Source of the DNA: Neisseriaceae bacterium
GTDB lineage: Bacteria > Pseudomonadota > Gammaproteobacteria > Burkholderiales > Neisseriaceae
NCBI GenBank assembly: GCA_016864895.1
Contig: CP046107.1
Span: forward strand, 1,185,741-1,249,740
Reading direction: 5' to 3'
DNA length: 64,000 nt
Of this stretch, positions 10,117 through 64,000 are shown piece after piece. The stretch's first letter is position 1. Each line of letters starts with the position of its first letter. Position numbers and translations under genes: made by a program. The notes beneath the pieces are model-generated. The model worked only from the letters and a program-made list of their open reading frames with translations, ran no database searches and had not been told where the DNA came from.

Positions 10117-11917
10117 TATGATGTCGTCTTCTTTCTAATTCTGTAAGATAGCGTTTTCTTAAACGAATATTTTTTGGTGTAATTTCGACTAATTCGTCAC
10201 TATCGATAAATTCAACAGCACTTTCTAGGGTTAGTTTTATAGGGGTTGTCAATCTTACCGCTTCATCCGTACCTGAAGCTCTAATATTAGTTAATTTCTT
10301 ACCTTTTAGTGGGTTAACTACCAAATCATTGTCACGAGAATGAATACCAATAATCATACCTTCGTAAACTTTTTCTCCAGGGCTGATAAACATACGACCA
10401 CGATCTTCCAAATTCCATAATGCATAAGCCACTGCCTCACCTTGTTCTTGAGAAATTAATACCCCATTTTGACGACTAGGTAAGTCTGTTTTTACAGGGC
10501 CATAATCATCAAATACGTGTGACATTAAACCAGTTCCTTTGGTTAAAGTCATAAAATCATTTTGGAAACCAATCAGACCTCTAGCAGGGATATAGTAATC
10601 TAATCTAGTTCTACCATTGCCGTCACTTTCCATATTGACCAACTCACCTTTACGTTTGCCAATGGCTTCCATCACTGAACCTTGATGGTTATCTTCGACA
10701 TCTATGGTCAAATTCTCGTAGGGTTCATATTTTTGACCCTCAATATCTTTGTATAGAACTCTTGGCTTACCAACAGCTAATTCATAACCTTCACGTCTCA
10801 TATTTTCAATCAGGATTGTAAGGTGCAATTCTCCACGACCAGACACCCTAAATATATCAGCATCAGCAGTTTCTTCCACTCTAAGAGCAACATTAGTTAA
10901 GGTTTCTTTCATTAAGCGATCCCTAATTTGACGACTGGTGACGAATTTTCCTTCCAGTCCAGCGTATGGAGAGGTGTTGACCATAAAATCCATGGTTAAT
11001 GTTGGTTGATCAATACTGATCACAGGAAGCCCAATAGGGTTTTCTTTATCACAAATGGTTACCCCGATACCTATCTCTTCTAAACCTGAAATAATTACAA
11101 TATCTCCAGATTCTGCTTCTTCTAAAGGTACTCTATCTAAACCTTTAAATCCCAGTAATTGGTTAATTTTGCCTTGGGTAACCACTTCATCATCATTCAT
11201 AACAACAACATTTTGTCCAGGTTTAATTTTGCCGTTTAAAATACGTCCAATTCCTAAGCGACCTGTATAAGCTGAGTAATCCAATTGAGAAATTTGTAGC
11301 TGTAATGGTTTTTCGCTAGAACCTTGGGGTTCTGGGGTGTGCTTTAAAATGGCGGCAAAAAGAGGATGCATATCAGAGCTGTTATCTTGTAAGTTGTTTT
11401 TAGCATAGCCATCTAAACCTGAAGCATACACAATTGGGAAATCCAACTGTTCTTCTGTGGCGCCTAAGTTATCAAAGAGATCAAACGTTTGATCAATTGC
11501 CCAATTAATTCGCGCTCCGGGTTTATCGATTTTATTAACAACTACAATTGGTTTTAATCCTAGAGAAAGTGCCTTTTTAGTGACAAAACGCGTTTGAGGC
11601 ATAGGGCCTTCTTGAGCGTCTATCAATAATACAACACAATCAACCATGCCCAATACTCGTTCTACTTCTCCACCAAAGTCAGCATGCCCAGGTGTGTCAA
11701 CAATGTTGATATGGTAGCCTTGATATTCAATAGCTGTATTTTTAGCTAGTATTGTGATACCTCTTTCTTTTTCGATATCGTTGTTGTCCATAATACGTTC
11801 ATCAACATGTTGATTGTCTCTGAAAGTACCCGATTGTTTTAGTAGTTGATCAATAAGAGTGGTTTTCCCATGGTCAACGTGAGCAATGATTGCGATATTA
11901 CGAATTTTTTTTGTCAT
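10103..11917 (-). CDS. typA: Translational GTPase TypA/BipA
   Basis: 604-residue ribosome-binding GTPase related to EF-G and LepA, involved in 50S assembly and stress growth. GTPase motifs: [10 protein letters not shown] (G1), the switch I segment [17 protein letters not shown] (G3), [10 protein letters not shown] (G4). Domain II and the TypA-specific C-terminus ([19 protein letters not shown], then [14 protein letters not shown]) are complete. The C-terminus RRRHHNKTE is encoded within the palindromic terminator it shares with the CDF gene. Monocistronic by layout: about 330 bp of non-coding DNA lies upstream. Confidence 0.97.
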
Positions 11918-12204
11918 GATTTTATATTCAATATTATTTCATTTGTAAGGTAAACAGAATTAATTATTCAGGTAATTTTTTTATAAAAATTCTATCGTGA
12001 AAAGTACAACTTATCATTATAACACTCTTACTTTATATTTATTACCATTTTTTTAGGATGAATAATTTTTATATTTAAAACTTGATTTAGTGAATTACTA
12101 TCAGAGAACTTACCTGAATGGTAGAGAGATTAAAAAATATATTTTTTTTGGTTTCAATCTTATAAGGGGTATAAGGAGAGACAACTAGTTAAATAATATA
12201 GGAA

Positions 12205-12688
12205 TATATACAAATATATAGTATTTCTGACCATATCATAGTCACGTTTAACTATACTTCATAAAGTTTTGTCCCCTTTTCAAGATCGAATTCTGTAATA
12301 CATGTATATAGCTAGGTTGGCTGTAATCGGTGCCGACAATCCTGGTAACGACTACTGCTTCTCTAAGTTTGGACAGTAAATGACTACATTCACATTCTTT
12401 TTGACAAATATTAACTGGATCTATTATGGTAATGGTCATTGTTCCTTTGAAAGTGAGTTTCCTATTTTTTAGGATCTTCAATAGGGATTTCAATTCCTAT
12501 GATGCAAAGTTTGGTGATTGTGCTGAATTAATAGGAAGTTCTAAAAATCTCTCTATTCCATGACCAGCCCAGCCTTTATTTACTTTGCCTGATGGGTTTA
12601 AAACTATTACTTTATACTCTAAAGAAAGCTCATGCAAATTTCTATCTTTCAATGTTTGCATTCTTTCTATTGCTTCTTTACGTTCCAT
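12205..12688 (-). pseudogene. MutH/Sau3AI-like (GATC) restriction nuclease remnant
   Basis: Decayed gene directly after the Dam methylase (ATG at 12688, 7 bp beyond the dam stop, AAGGTGAG as ribosome site). Reading leftward, the frame gives GWAGHGIERFLELP, then NFAS, an in-frame TAG at 12499-12497, and ELKSLLKILKNRKLTFKG. TAG probably replaced the TGG (Trp) expected before the catalytic ELK. Frame then runs to IDPVNICQKE and VVVTRIVGTDYSQPSYIH; near 12285-12300 the match jumps frame (FDLEKGTKLYEV) and again near 12255 (VKRDYDMVRNTI). The final conserved C-terminal segment is missing. The pattern resembles the MutH/Sau3AI fold, whose members cut at GATC; family assignment is from memory of motifs. 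Confidence 0.7.
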
Positions 12689-12695
12689 ACTCACC

Positions 12696-13505
12696 TTACT
12701 TAAAAATCGCTAGTAGCTCGTTAACTTTTATTCTTTTACTGCCTTTAGATGATATATTGCGTTGAACAGATATTGTTTTAATATTGGCACCTTTATACAA
12801 TTTTCTAGTTACTTCTGTATCATGGTTTGAGATTAATATACCTTTTGTTTTCTTTGCTGTTAATTCGGCTAACTTAGCAAGTTTTTGTTGTTGATTTTGG
12901 TTAAATCCACCTTGTGAATAGCTTGTAAAATAGGCAGTTTCAGATAGCGGCACATACGGAGGATCACAATAAATTAAATCATTAGATTGGGCTATTGAAA
13001 ATGTCTCTTCAAAGTGAGCATACATTAGTTCGATTCTACCTGATTTGTGGATAAAATGTTCCATTTCACTTTTTGGAAAGTAAACTGTTTTATATCGACC
13101 AAAAGGTACGTTAAAGAGTCCTTTACTGTTATAGCGACATAATCCATTGTAAGCGTGTCTATTTAAATACATGAATAAAGCGGATCTTTCTAGCTTATCT
13201 TGTGATTGATTAAACTGTGTTCTCAACTCATAGAACTGTATTTCTTGGTTATTATGGGGAGTAAAAAATGATTGAGCGTAGTCAATAAAGTCTTTTTTTT
13301 CAGTTTTTAATGCTTCAAATAAATTAATTAAATCAGCATTGGCGTCAGATAACACATAACTTTCAAATTCAACACCTAATGTAACTGCACCACTCCCTGA
13401 AAATGGCTCTATTAAGCGTTTTCTATTAGAAATAGGCATATGTTCTTCAATGAATTGAACAAGTTTAGCTTTACCGCCAGCCCACTTTAAAAAAGGCTTA
13501 GACAT
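12696..13505 (-). CDS. dam: DNA adenine methyltransferase (Dam/DpnM type)
   Basis: 269-residue N6-adenine methylase of the D12 (alpha) class. Motif I FLKWAGGKAKL at the N-terminus, EPFSGSGAVTLG, the catalytic DPPY motif (DLIYCDPPYVPLSETAYF) and the C-terminal NISSKGSKRIKVNELL match Dam/DpnM/MboIA enzymes that methylate GATC. Its neighbour is the ruin of a MutH/Sau3AI-like nuclease, so it is probably the surviving half of a type II system rather than a housekeeping Dam; target GATC is inferred. About 770 bp of non-coding DNA lies upstream. Confidence 0.88.
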   Translation of the reverse strand: MSKPFLKWAGGKAKLVQFIEEHMPISNRKRLIEPFSGSGAVTLGVEFESYVLSDANADLINLFEALKTEKKDFIDYAQSFFTPHNNQEIQFYELRTQFNQSQDKLERSALFMYLNRHAYNGLCRYNSKGLFNVPFGRYKTVYFPKSEMEHFIHKSGRIELMYAHFEETFSIAQSNDLIYCDPPYVPLSETAYFTSYSQGGFNQNQQQKLAKLAELTAKKTKGILISNHDTEVTRKLYKGANIKTISVQRNISSKGSKRIKVNELLAIFK

Positions 13506-14277
13506 TATCGTGAATTATGCTCTCTTAATAAAGTTGATTCAATAAATATCATGTTAGTTTTTAGTAAATGGAAGAACAATAGGAATCATTCTTAACTTTA
13601 TAAATTGTACCAGAAAAAAATTATTTCCATTTCGTATAGCTTATTTTATATTAACCATAATATTCATAAAATTCGATTCTCGTAAAAGAAATGGGGAAAG
13701 AATAGGATGTGAATGTTTTGTTTTTGAAAATACCACTCCTTTTATCCTAAGCTAATATTAAATTATGTAATGTTTACAACATTACATTATCCCTTTCCCC
13801 CATGACAATATGAGGTTTTTTTTTGTGGTAAAAATTATGAGGGGGGGGGAGGATTAATTTTTTCTAATTCACTCCATATTAAAGTGGTATTAGCTATGTA
13901 TGGGGGATAGAATTGAATTATCGAGAATATTCGATAGATTTTCTACTGATATACATATCGAGTTATATAGCCAAACATGCTTTTAAAGGACTTTAAAACG
14001 CGTTTTAAGTTGAGGGTGGAATGTTGAGAATGTACCACATCTAAAGGCCAAAACTAGCGATTTTGAGCGTTTCACAAGAATAAATACTATAATGTATCTC
14101 ACAGAATTGCCAATTTTATAGGAATGTAGGAGGACATTAATTTTTCTTTTTATCGGTTAGTTATTTATCATATTCTAAGCCGACATTAATCATCTTTCAA
14201 TTAATGTAGTTAGATTGGTTAGTCTATTATTTGTGAGTTATATATCGAAAAAAAGTTAACTCAATAGCAAAATGTTG
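13506..14277. other. Intergenic region with palindromes, no gene
   Basis: About 770 bp between dam and the tRNA cluster. No open frame of note. It contains a perfect 10-bp inverted repeat (13765-13787), a pyrimidine-rich block answered by a G9 run about 60 bp further on (around 13790-13850), and a 16-bp perfect palindrome TTAAAACGCGTTTTAA at 13993-14008. None has a known identity to me. Confidence 0.5.
13765..13787. repeat. Perfect inverted repeat, 10-bp arms
   Basis: ATGTAATGTT and AACATTACAT separated by TAC. The short loop and lack of a T-run argue against a terminator; it looks more like an operator for a dimeric DNA-binding protein or a cruciform-forming site. It lies about 260 bp upstream of dam, in unassigned DNA. 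Confidence 0.6.
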
Positions 14278-48714: not shown

Positions 48715-48854
48715 ATTAATCGTTCCATTCCTATAATAATTTTACAATGCGATACAGTCATCACAAATTATACAAGCAGTATTATGATAGTACATCTTTA
48801 ATTTTAATAGTGTGTCAATAGTGGTAGTCATTTTGTTTTGATTTATTAATCAAA

Positions 48855-48931
48855 TGGTAGGCATGATTGGACTCGAACCAACGACCCCCACCATGTCAAG
48901 GTGATGCTCTAACCAGCTGAGCTACATGCCT
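48855..48931 (-). tRNA. tRNA-Val (anticodon GAC)
   Basis: Acceptor AGGCATG pairs with CATGCCT, anticodon GAC in CTTGACATG, T-loop GTTCGAGTC, encoded CCA. Standing alone between thrS and the TonB receptor. Confidence 0.95.
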
Positions 48932-59425: not shown

Positions 59426-60971
<1,546 letters not shown>

Positions 60972-60984
60972 GAGAATATGAGGA

Positions 60985-61009
60985 AATTGCACTTACACTT
61001 ATCGATAAT
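60985..61009 (+). other. Right arm of the 16S RNase III processing stem
   Basis: Complement of 59305-59329; see that entry. It lies between the 16S 3' end and tRNA-Ile, and is intact, which shows that the operon was functional in the past and that 16S processing should still work. Confidence 0.85.
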
Positions 61010-61032
61010 TGGTTGTTGATTGAGAAGCTAAT

Positions 61033-61109
<77 letters not shown>

Positions 61110-61817
61110 ATCCTATCAATACAAATCTTTATTGATATCTATCAACGTGTTTATGGTAGAAATCTTTCGGATGAATGTAATAGCGATAAGATCCGTCGAT
61201 ATGGGGTTTACCATTTAATGTCATTAACTATTTTTCTTTTCTAAGATCTCTTAAAATTTGTATTGTACATTTAGTTTATGGGGAAGTAACAGAGCCGATA
61301 ACTTTTTGCTTTCTGTGGGAAATAAGTGGAGAGCTATAAAGATTTGCTGTTGTGAGATCTTGTAAAGTTGGAAAATTATACCTATTGTGATAGAAAAATG
61401 ATATTGGCAGTGTTTGCAGTGCTATAACATCGGCTATTCCATCAGGTATTTTTGAGGCAAAAGTTTTGGTATCAGAAAGTTATACAACTCACTCAATCGT
61501 TAAATTATAGGCTTTTGCTGATAACCGAAAATATACTATAAAGATAAAGCTATTTTATTAAAACTATTAACTTTCAAACTTTTGTAGACATTAAGAAATC
61601 AAAATGTAATAAAGGGTCGATTATTGGTGTCGAAAAATATATTGCTTATAGAATGTGTTTATCAAGTGGTATCTTGAGTCGGTTTTTGAAAATGCCATCA
61701 ACTATTTTTTAAATAAATTTTAACAATGAAAATATAACAAAGAGAGATAGGGAAATTTCTTTTTGACCAAAAATCAGATAAAATAATCTCTTATAAATCA
61801 AGTATTTTTATATTTTA
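61110..61817. other. No 23S or tRNA-Ala; featureless DNA
   Basis: About 700 bp between tRNA-Ile and the mobA remnant. I looked for tRNA-Ala (GGGGCTATAGCTCAG) and the 23S start (GGTCAAG...GATGCC) and found neither. AT-rich, no open frame, some short protein-like stretches, no recognised repeat. Confidence 0.6.
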
Positions 61818-62912
61818 TCATTTAACTTTTTTCTCCTTTGTGATTTGTTTTCTGTACTCTCGTTCTAAAGTTAATTTTTGTATCGCACCCCAAAAGCCTT
61901 TTTGTTCATTTAATTGTCTTTTGTGTTGCAATTCTTTTAATTTAAACTCTTTTTCTTTTTCCAATTCTTTTCTTTGTTGTTCAGTTTGATGTACCACTAT
62001 TTCCCAATTAGCTAGTTTTTGATTCTCGATAACAGTTCGTTTTAAACGAATATCATCACCTATCTGTGCATTAGAATATTGAATAGCCCCTTCTAAATTT
62101 TTACCCCAAAGAGTCCTAATTTCACCTTTTGACGTTTTGTAGGATACAAAATAGCTTTCTTTGTTTTTTTTATCATTTAAATAAGGAGATTTACCGTGTG
62201 CCACTAACTCAAATACGCCAGTAGGTCTTTTGTACTCATCGTTAATTTTCCATTCTTCTTTTTGGTATTCTTCTCTTCTTTTCTGTCTCTTAGATAAAGA
62301 TCTTTGCTCCGGCTCCAATTTTACTTTTATACCATTGTTAATTAATTCTTTAGAAAAATTATGCTTTAGTTTTTGTAAGATATCTGGATTCAAATCAATA
62401 TTTTTTTTTAATTCGAGATCTTGTTTATTTAAACATACATGTACCTGTGGGTGTTCTGTATCCATGTGCAATGAATAAACAAAATAGTTATTAGGAAACT
62501 GTTCTTTTAAAGTTTTTCCCACTGCTTGTAGCAAAATATCTTCTGATCCTTTTTCAATGCATTTTAATGAAAATATCATATTGTACGTTTGTCTTGTTTT
62601 GTTTTTTCCATTGTTGCAATACAACAATTTTTCGTTATACAGTCCCATTTCATTTTTAGCATTAATTGTCTCAAATTTACGTCTTAATATTTTGTTATCT
62701 GAGGTATGTAAATCAATTTTTCCATTCCTTGAAATATAGTCAATATGGTTTGCTACTTCATTATAATCTTTTCCACCAGAGGTTATTTTCACCACTGAAT
62801 AATCAACCCTATCTTTAGTCTTGGTAGGTTGTTTGTATTTTATAGTGTTTCCTACGACAAAAGATCTTTTGGTATATTTAATACGATATTATTCATCAAT
62901 TTTTATAGGCAT
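61818..62912 (-). pseudogene. Relaxase / mobilization protein (MobA type) with in-frame TAA
   Basis: Plasmid relaxase that nicks DNA at oriT to start transfer. The natural ATG at 62912 overlaps the end of mobC and reads MPIKIDE, then TAA at 62891-62889, then YRIKYTKRSFVVGN in the same frame. Downstream GTG at 62795 could start a shorter protein (MVKITSGG). Family core: KDYNEVANHIDYISRNG, and the third relaxase motif HMDTEHPQVHVCLNKQD (metal-binding His). 365 codons in all; the C-terminus is Lys/Glu-rich (KEKEFKLKELQHKRQ). The stop codon either kills the gene or shortens it by about 39 codons. Confidence 0.8.
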
Positions 62913-63451
62913 TTTAACTTGATTTTAGTTATTGTATTCTTTGTTTCTTGTAACAAAGAGTTAGTTTTATCTAATAATTTTTTTAAATATTCTTCTTGTG
63001 ATTCATTTAAATTAATTATCCCGTACTTTTGTTTATTGTAATATTTACTGATAGAATCGACATTTGTACCTAGTTTAATTAATTGTTTGTTTAAATTATT
63101 TAAGGTGTTTAATTCCTCAAAATTTAATAATGTTTTTTTATCAATATTAGAAGCTAATATTTTTCTTATTTGAGCATTAACCGATAAGTAATTTTTTTTA
63201 CTTATTGTAGCTAAATAATCAAACTCTTTATTGTTTAAGTAAATTGTTTTTCTGTAAATTTTATTAATATTTGATGATATTGCATTATTTTTAATCAATT
63301 TATCGATGTTAGATTGATTATTTAAGAAATCGTCAATAATAATATTTATAAATCTAGAATAGGTCATCCTATTTTCTATTAATAGACATATTTGTTGGTA
63401 GGTATCATAACTAATTCTAACTGTCTTTTTAATATCTTTATTTATTTTCAT
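62903..63451 (-). CDS. MobC-like relaxosome accessory protein
   Basis: 182 residues, very AT-rich. Ribbon-helix-helix-like start (IKKTVRISYDTYQQICLLI) followed by the MobC motif LNNLNKQLIKLGTNVDSIS near residue 118. MobC proteins bind oriT beside the relaxase. The end overlaps the start of the mobA gene, the normal mobCA arrangement. The open frame is intact, unlike mobA. No replication gene is nearby, so these may be remains of an integrated plasmid. Confidence 0.8.
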   Translation of the reverse strand: MKINKDIKKTVRISYDTYQQICLLIENRMTYSRFINIIIDDFLNNQSNIDKLIKNNAISSNINKIYRKTIYLNNKEFDYLATISKKNYLSVNAQIRKILASNIDKKTLLNFEELNTLNNLNKQLIKLGTNVDSISKYYNKQKYGIINLNESQEEYLKKLLDKTNSLLQETKNTITKIKLKCL

Positions 63452-63630
63452 GTTAATTTCCTAACAATACTGTAATTATGTAAATGTAATTTTTATCTTA
63501 CAAATAATTTATGTTCTATTCCCCAATTTATTTTAATATCACTATTTTTTTTTATTTTAACTAGTAAAAATATTGTTTGCAATTGTATGTTTAGTTTGTT
63601 CAAGGTAAAAATTATGTCAGATCACAAAAT

Positions 63631-64000
63631 TTATGTAAATTCATACCATGATTGATCTAGGATAGAACGATTTAATCCCGATTTTTTGCTTTACTCTTTT
63701 ACCATGATGAGTCGTATCCCCCTTTGCAGACTTAGACATGTGACCAACCTGCAAATCTTCTACATACACAATGGCGTGGTTTTTGCTAATTTGAGCAGAG
63801 ATTTGATGAAGGTAATGACGTCTAATATTGGCTATTCTCGAGTGTAAGCGTGATACTTTATTTTTTGCTTTTTTCCAGTTGTGACTCAATGGTGTCTTAT
63901 GGCTCATTTGACATTGCAGTTTAGCTAACTGACGTTGTGCCGTTTTAAAACGATTGATAGGCTCAAAGTATTGACCGTTACTTAAGGTTGCAAAACGGGT
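63631..64000 (-). pseudogene. tnpB: IS200/IS605-type tnpB, frameshifted and truncated, runs off the window
   Basis: Enters from the right edge in frame (TRFATLSNGQYFEP, INRFKTAQRQLAKLQ), then NWKKAKNKVSRLHSRIANIR and AIVYVEDLQVGHMSKSAKG, the RuvC segment with the catalytic Glu. At an A6 run (63680-63685 plus-strand T6) the frame shifts: the original reading would give KQKSGLNRSILDQSWYEF but the gene reads KIGIKSFYPRSIMV and stops at 63641. Even in the original frame the next stop is at 63631, directly after WYEF, so the zinc finger and last catalytic Asp are absent. It is a dead fragment. Confidence 0.85.

Follow-up and report, generated by a model that had tools for sequence, protein, structure and literature searches.

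Methyltransferase genes that stand alone beside degraded restriction genes have been described before (Seshasayee et al., as cited in PMC6471742). According to the relevant section of PMC4176335, recent decay of a complete system is not how most solitary restriction-modification genes came about, which gives value to clear cases of decay in place. Corrupted restriction genes, together with avoidance of GATC, are also a subject of the pertinent part of PMC4687349. In the Neisseriaceae, the leuS/dam locus can carry drg, a dam-replacing gene of DpnI type whose insertion entails the loss of Dam (corresponding passages of PMC4269198 and PMC516771). Here we analyzed a stretch of 64,000 nucleotides (the window; contig CP046107.1, positions 1,185,741 to 1,249,740) from the single-contig genome of a Neisseriaceae bacterium, in which an intact dam gene is followed by a broken nuclease gene. 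As far as the cited sections of PMC6471742 and PMC4176335 go, this is a remnant of the same kind as the orphan methylases described there, but it differs from the majority considered in PMC4176335 in that it apparently arose by decay of a complete system. With the drg locus, as presented in those passages of PMC4269198 and PMC516771, it shares the turnover of a nuclease partner next to a Dam gene, except that in the window it is the nuclease that was lost, and Dam remains. A stretch from a relative may be compared with drg: in G012 (L010, 719-2259) dam matches only to residue 236 and a DpnI-family gene comes directly after it in the same orientation, an arrangement that resembles the junction left by a dam replacement. 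In another stretch, L005, a frame that by eye resembles leucyl-tRNA synthetase precedes dam, as in the leuS/dam locus of that part of PMC4269198.

The dam gene occupies positions 12696..13505 on the minus strand (coding 13505-12699, stop codon 12696-12698) and encodes 269 amino acids without interruption. The preliminary description had proposed a complete Dam-like methylase within 12205-13505, and the protein bears this out. PF02086 matched residues 8-251 (1.1e-63, Pfam), and TIGR00571, the NCBIfam dam model, gave 2.2e-86 and 289.9 bits against a cut-off of 114.85. In sequence searches of the PDB, residues 3-269 aligned with E. coli Dam (2g1p, 2.4e-77), and DpnII methylase 1 (2dpm) matched at 6.9e-42, both alignments being near end-to-end. 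The D12 class domain spans the whole protein, as in the Dam family. EPFSGSG, DPPY and the LNRHAYNGLCRYN...NVPFGRYK stretch (NGLCRYN...NVPFGRYK) all aligned to their counterparts in 2g1p; we take DPPY to be the catalytic motif, EPFSGSG the SAM motif and NGLCRYN...NVPFGRYK the GATC-reading stretch, and the protein carries the three expected of a Dam-type adenine-N6 methyltransferase. Judged by its homology to Dam, and by that of its partner to GATC nucleases, the enzyme probably recognizes GATC. It is presumably expressed and active, and GATC methylation most likely continues. No second D12 methylase was found in the window's genome. The gene differs from those of E. coli Dam and DpnII methylase 1 in its setting: it is part of a restriction-modification remnant next to typA, and neither an intact MutH nor SeqA was matched in its genome.

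The partner is a pseudogene of a single-domain nuclease of the Sau3AI/MutH type, traceable from residue 1 to 158 at 12217..12688 on the minus strand. The preliminary description had reported a stop codon where a tryptophan should stand, just before ELK, as well as two frame jumps and a lost C-terminus, and had asked for a comparison with relatives that carry intact copies. Such copies were found, and the lesions mapped against them agreed on every count. The frame begins MERKEAIERMQ at 12688, 7 bases downstream of the Dam stop, and stays open for 63 codons until a TAG at residue 64 (12497..12499, minus strand). This codon takes the place of the SWELK tryptophan that immediately precedes the catalytic E-x-K; the Trp is present in 12/12 relatives (L040-L046, G093, G097 and L144-L146), and ELK follows in all 12 and, after the stop, in the window too. 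Alignment with the relatives revealed a further lesion that had been overlooked, the loss of one codon (Pro70 of the relatives) at 12481..12482 on the minus strand. When two intact relatives were compared by tblastn with window positions 11500-13000, their matches fell in three frames. The first (frame -1, to about residue 130) was 61% identical to one relative over 142 columns and 65% identical to the other over 140 (2e-58 and 2e-60). The second (frame -3) held the relatives' residues 132-144/145 at about 12258-12299, and the third (frame -2) residues 147-158 at 12217-12252. The two frame shifts are thereby placed, approximately, at 12299..12302 and 12252..12258 on the minus strand. Beyond residue 158 there was no match in any frame of this interval, and about 50 C-terminal residues are gone, the intact relatives being 200-210 amino acids long. 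With a stop, two frame shifts and no C-terminus found, the gene lacks the open reading frame of a functional type II nuclease.

Sequencing or assembly error could be suspected behind these breaks, given that the species is represented by one genome. However, a nonsense codon, a lost codon, two shifts, the absence of ∼50 residues and the 17 changes at invariant positions reported below are together hard to explain in this way, and the neighbouring dam gene is clean; we regard error as extremely unlikely. Phase variation of restriction genes is known from other bacteria, and TATATA adjoins the first frame shift, as might suit a nuclease made switchable by recoding or phase variation. No homopolymer of more than 3 bases lies within ten bases of either shift, however, and the C-terminal part had no match in any frame of 11500-13000, which makes regulated breaks scarcely credible.

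The identity of the nuclease was assessed with the window piece and with its intact relatives. Read through its stop, the window piece matched PF02976 (MutH) at 9.8e-5, its 22.6 bits falling narrowly short of the cut-off of 23, and the NCBIfam MutH and Sau3AI models at 1.8e-4/2.7e-4, far under their equivalog cut-offs; a PDB sequence search with the broken piece gave no match. An intact relative matched PF02976 at 5.9e-12, NF040973 (Sau3AI) at 4.4e-16 (58.8 against a cut-off of 300) and the NCBIfam MutH model at 1.9e-10, below the equivalog cut-off, and the two intact relatives scanned exceeded the PF02976 cut-off with 45.8 and 44.7 bits. By phmmer, an intact relative found Sau3AI in the PDB (4pxg, 6.7e-10) and MutH weakly (0.012-0.019). 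An AlphaFold2 model was built from six intact relatives (mean pLDDT 72, pTM 0.66, with the stretch 172-190 under 50). With Foldseek, this fold matched 11 PDB entries at E≤0.001, all of them Sau3AI or MutH (4pxg at 5.8e-8, MutH at 1.7e-7), and BcnI came next at 0.076. A Sau3AI/MutH core is thus indicated by a window piece just under the PF02976 cut-off, by intact relatives over it and by the predicted fold, and the similarity to PD-(D/E)XK GATC nucleases on which the proposed MutH/Sau3AI-like identity hinged was found. These matches suggest that the gene coded for a Sau3AI/MutH-type GATC nuclease, with a specificity that would follow from homology. The family nevertheless stands apart from both namesakes. 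In Sau3AI, a type II enzyme that cuts GATC, it is the N-terminal catalytic half that an intact relative matches, but the relatives are single-domain proteins (4pxg has ∼465 resolved residues), the NF040973 score lies far below its cut-off, and residue 60, which aligns with the Sau3AI/MutH Asp before ExK, is Asn in 11/12 relatives and Asp in L145. We take the aligned Asp to be the first catalytic acidic residue. In the alignment, the spacing from residue 60 to ELK is two residues shorter in the relatives than in MutH. Size and fold are shared with MutH (2azo, 2aoq), but the nuclease described here forms a cassette with a methylase and scores under the MutH equivalog cut-offs.

Relatives of the nuclease are few in the family and scattered beyond it. 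Among 83 family genomes, a search with the window piece (X at the stop) matched three: the window's own, G097 (65%) and G093 (62%). Both relatives are intact, and the one-frame window piece matched them far beyond chance (4.7e-54 and 3.1e-52). A contig search with these copies retrieved seven loci, six of them intact and one (L045) split into two frames. They come from Moraxella atlantae (L040), a Moraxellaceae MAG (L046) and MAGs labelled Planctomycetota, Desulfobacula, Clostridia, Deltaproteobacteria and Bacteroidetes/Chlorobi (L041-L045). A profile of six nuclease copies matched 52 of 369 genomes of the class at E≤0.001; only four, one being the window's own, reached 1e-57 or better, and the other 48 were at 3.7e-12 or weaker. 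The further strong matches in the class were L144, which a stop truncates after residue 143/144, and the intact L145 and L146, which brings the copies seen to 10 intact and 3 broken (window, L045 and L144). Three gene layouts were observed. Dam and nuclease stand alone in the window, L040 and L046, with 13 bp (L040) and 8 bp (L046) from Dam stop to nuclease start; in G093 and G097 the nuclease follows Dam and a CcrM/DpnA-like second methylase (N6_N4_Mtase, 1.4e-59); and in eight loci (L041-L045 and L144-L146) only the second methylase precedes it, although a Dam further upstream is possible where the contig ends (L042, L044, L144) or where less than 0.6 kb lies upstream of the second methylase (L145, L146). 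Hence a small single-domain Sau3AI-type nuclease occurs in genomes labelled as several phyla, partnered by Dam, by a CcrM/DpnA-like methylase or by both.

The closest Dam to that of the window is the one of M. atlantae (66.5%). In the Dam tree the two group with support 86/82, and with L046 at 81/94, none of these nodes being starred; in the nuclease tree the window joins L040 and L046 with 82/84, again not starred. The starred set unites the window with L040, L046, G093 and G097 (100/99). These trees, with moderate support, would place the window pair among the two-gene Dam-nuclease systems of Moraxella-type bacteria.

The pair lies in a segment that the other genome of the genus, G001, lacks. 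When the same matched blocks were compared, the interval between typA and tRNA-Pro contained 2175 bp in the window (12076..14250) and 81 bp in G001; there, typA (TypA 94% identical) adjoins tRNA-Pro, that is, the site is empty, and G001 had no match to Dam, to the nuclease or to the MutH, DpnII and DpnI families. The simplest reading of this comparison of two genomes is an insertion at typA/tRNA-Pro in the window lineage, the alternative being a loss in G001, and the insertion was probably horizontal. The remainder of the extra segment, upstream of dam (13515..14250), holds no stop-to-stop frame longer than 65 codons wholly inside it. No convincing target duplication was seen among the repeats around the segment. 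The nuclease had no match in plasmid records at E≤0.01, one distant match in phage records (33% over 111 aa) and partial matches on one viral contig, results that lend no support to a virus or plasmid as carrier. A promoter scan returned 19 sites against 14.8 expected, the same scan gave no terminator, and PADLOC profiles, which hit methylase and type II restriction families, added little.

Two other features of the window were recorded. At 59427-64000, and beyond the window end in L164 and L165, a 16S rRNA gene and tRNA-Ile lead not into tRNA-Ala and 23S but into a plasmid-like segment of low GC content. It carries a relaxase (PF03432), a Rep3 initiator, pieces of IS200/IS605, a C5 methylase with an Eco47II-type nuclease, and then frames that by eye resemble type IV secretion genes. 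Searches of the next 33 kb found no additional rRNA or tRNA, and the 20 kb after that (L063) had no Rfam match. The alternatives are an rRNA operon split by a conjugative element and a plasmid joined on at this point by the assembly. In addition, the Rfam model of the HPnc0260 antisense RNA matched 48748-48893 on the plus strand (68.1 bits, cut-off 59), overlapping a tRNA-Val on the minus strand (48855-48931).

To compare the evolution of the two genes, invariant columns were defined from four intact pairs (L040, L046, G093 and G097). The window had changed 17/87 such columns in the nuclease and 6/129 in Dam (Fisher p=0.0012), so that conserved positions have changed more in the nuclease than in Dam. 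In leave-one-out comparisons of the nuclease, L040 had changed 3/90 columns against 17 in the window (p=0.0014), G093 1/88 against 17 (p=0.00007) and G097 5/92 against 20 (p=0.002); L046, with 12/99 against 20/99 (p=0.18), was not clearly slower than the window. For Dam, the counts for L040, L046, G093 and G097 were 17/146, 21/150, 7/136 and 8/137, against 17, 11, 7 and 6 in the window (p 0.09 to 1). The end branches tell the same two genes apart: 0.42 for the window, 0.069 for L040 and 0.21 for L046 in the nuclease tree, and 0.37, 0.35 and 0.62, respectively, in the Dam tree. The ratio of second- to third-codon-position differences was weakly shifted, at 0.27-0.38 in pairs with the window and 0.11-0.28 in intact pairs. 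Because the nuclease changes fast and Dam does not, Dam looks retained by selection after restriction was lost, and it behaves like a gene in use. The proposal that the methylase was kept while its nuclease partner decayed is therefore upheld by both the invariant columns and the end branches.

A competing explanation is that Dam is not under selection, the whole unit being on its way to loss and the methylase spared so far by luck. All three frame-destroying lesions fall in the nuclease, which makes up 474 of 1281 bp, and by length alone this has a probability of (474/1281)^3=0.05, a result that favours retention yet may also be luck; moreover, the congener has an empty site and no match to Dam or nuclease, which implies that such units come and go. 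Against luck stand the proportion of changed invariant columns, four times lower in Dam, and a Dam branch in the window equal to that of L040, where the nuclease branch is six times as long as in L040 and twice as long as in L046. We consider chance sparing unlikely, and favour retention of Dam by selection.

What a retained Dam would do was considered from the gene content of the genome. Searches for nucleases of the same specificity covered the MutH, DpnI and DpnII families. In the window's genome, the MutH family matched only the pseudogene (the E. coli control matched), and there was no match to the DpnI family (positive genome G012 matched), to the DpnII family (positive genome G014 matched) or to SeqA (the E. 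coli control matched). A protein of 269 amino acids that aligns end-to-end with E. coli Dam might be expected to share its housekeeping duties, mismatch-repair strand discrimination and replication timing. However, with no other nuclease of the three families and no SeqA, roles of the E. coli kind are unlikely to apply, and the congener has no Dam match; we judge housekeeping very improbable. The roles left to a selected Dam may be immunity to GATC restriction or gene regulation. That it acts as a stand-alone epigenetic or immunity methylase, with GmATC shielding the DNA from the GATC nucleases of relatives or controlling expression without intact MutH or SeqA, is a possibility we advance tentatively.

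Immunity is plausible since, in relatives, nucleases of several types accompany a Dam that is at least 56% identical. Such a Dam occurs in 9 of 61 genomes, among them the window's, with its Sau3AI-like pseudogene, and G012, with the DpnI-family gene beside its shortened dam. The nucleases next to related Dam genes (56-63% identical) in the relatives of this low-GC genome are of Sau3AI, MutH, DpnII and perhaps PD-(D/E)XK_11 type, and from their families they would be expected to cut GATC. A MutH-like gene lies beside Dam on the opposite strand in G013 and G027, a DpnII gene in G014, and a PD-(D/E)XK_11-like gene in G023 and G019, the one scanned being under the Pfam cut-off. In G036 (L006, 1501-3447) a DpnII-type nuclease in two frames accompanies an intact Dam and a second methylase of which just the first third matches; this would be another GATC system in decay. 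In G004 (L009, 1501-2334) a Dam of the clade stands between frames that by eye resemble dnaA and dnaN; six nuclease and methylase queries had no match in the stretch around it, and GATC is at 0.078 of expectation (80 kb).

GATC counts were also inspected as a possible trace of past restriction. The site is moderately rare in the window's genome (observed/expected 0.774, rank 6 of 256 tetramers) and rarer in the congener, which has no Dam match (0.556, rank 1). Of 10 other family genomes, each sampled at 80 kb, 9 had a ratio below 0.5 and one had 0.84. Ratios were 0.078, 0.324, 0.357, 0.405 and, for the window's own genome, 0.774 in genomes that bear Dam, and 0.005, 0.249, 0.298, 0.354, 0.368, 0.556 and 0.836 in genomes without a Dam match. 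Under-representation is widespread in the family and has no link to the presence of Dam, and we set it aside as a trace of past restriction; given the rarer GATC of the congener and of most family genomes, the ratio in the window's genome is not a clear sign that it long had its own nuclease. Nor do these counts tell the suggested roles of the methylation, regulation and immunity, apart. An extreme case is G011, of the same family, in which 24 stretches (L092-L095 and L124-L143) contain 16 GATC sites in 480 kb against ∼1,340 expected, and 7 of these lie together in 2 kb of L143; GGCC, CCGG and TCGA are nearly absent too, and no Dam match was found.

From the genomic comparisons, the history of the locus was very probably as follows. 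A type II GATC unit, consisting of a Dam-type methylase and then a small Sau3AI/MutH-type nuclease, would have entered the typA/tRNA-Pro interval. The nuclease would then have been inactivated and have decayed under relaxed constraint, while normal purifying selection held the adjacent methylase, which is most likely active, so that GATC is most likely still methylated. Selection would keep Dam because GmATC is still useful, most likely in protecting the chromosome from the GATC-cutting systems of relatives and less likely in regulation. With an intact Dam beside its degraded cognate nuclease, and intact pairs elsewhere, the locus is a clear new example of an already known kind of decay, in which the cutting half is degraded and the marking half kept. 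What is new is the empty site in a congener, the moderately supported grouping with Moraxella-type systems and the contrast between a nuclease that changes fast and a Dam that does not. The empty site, the intact two-gene relatives and the difference in rate present the transition from restriction to an orphan methylase caught half way.
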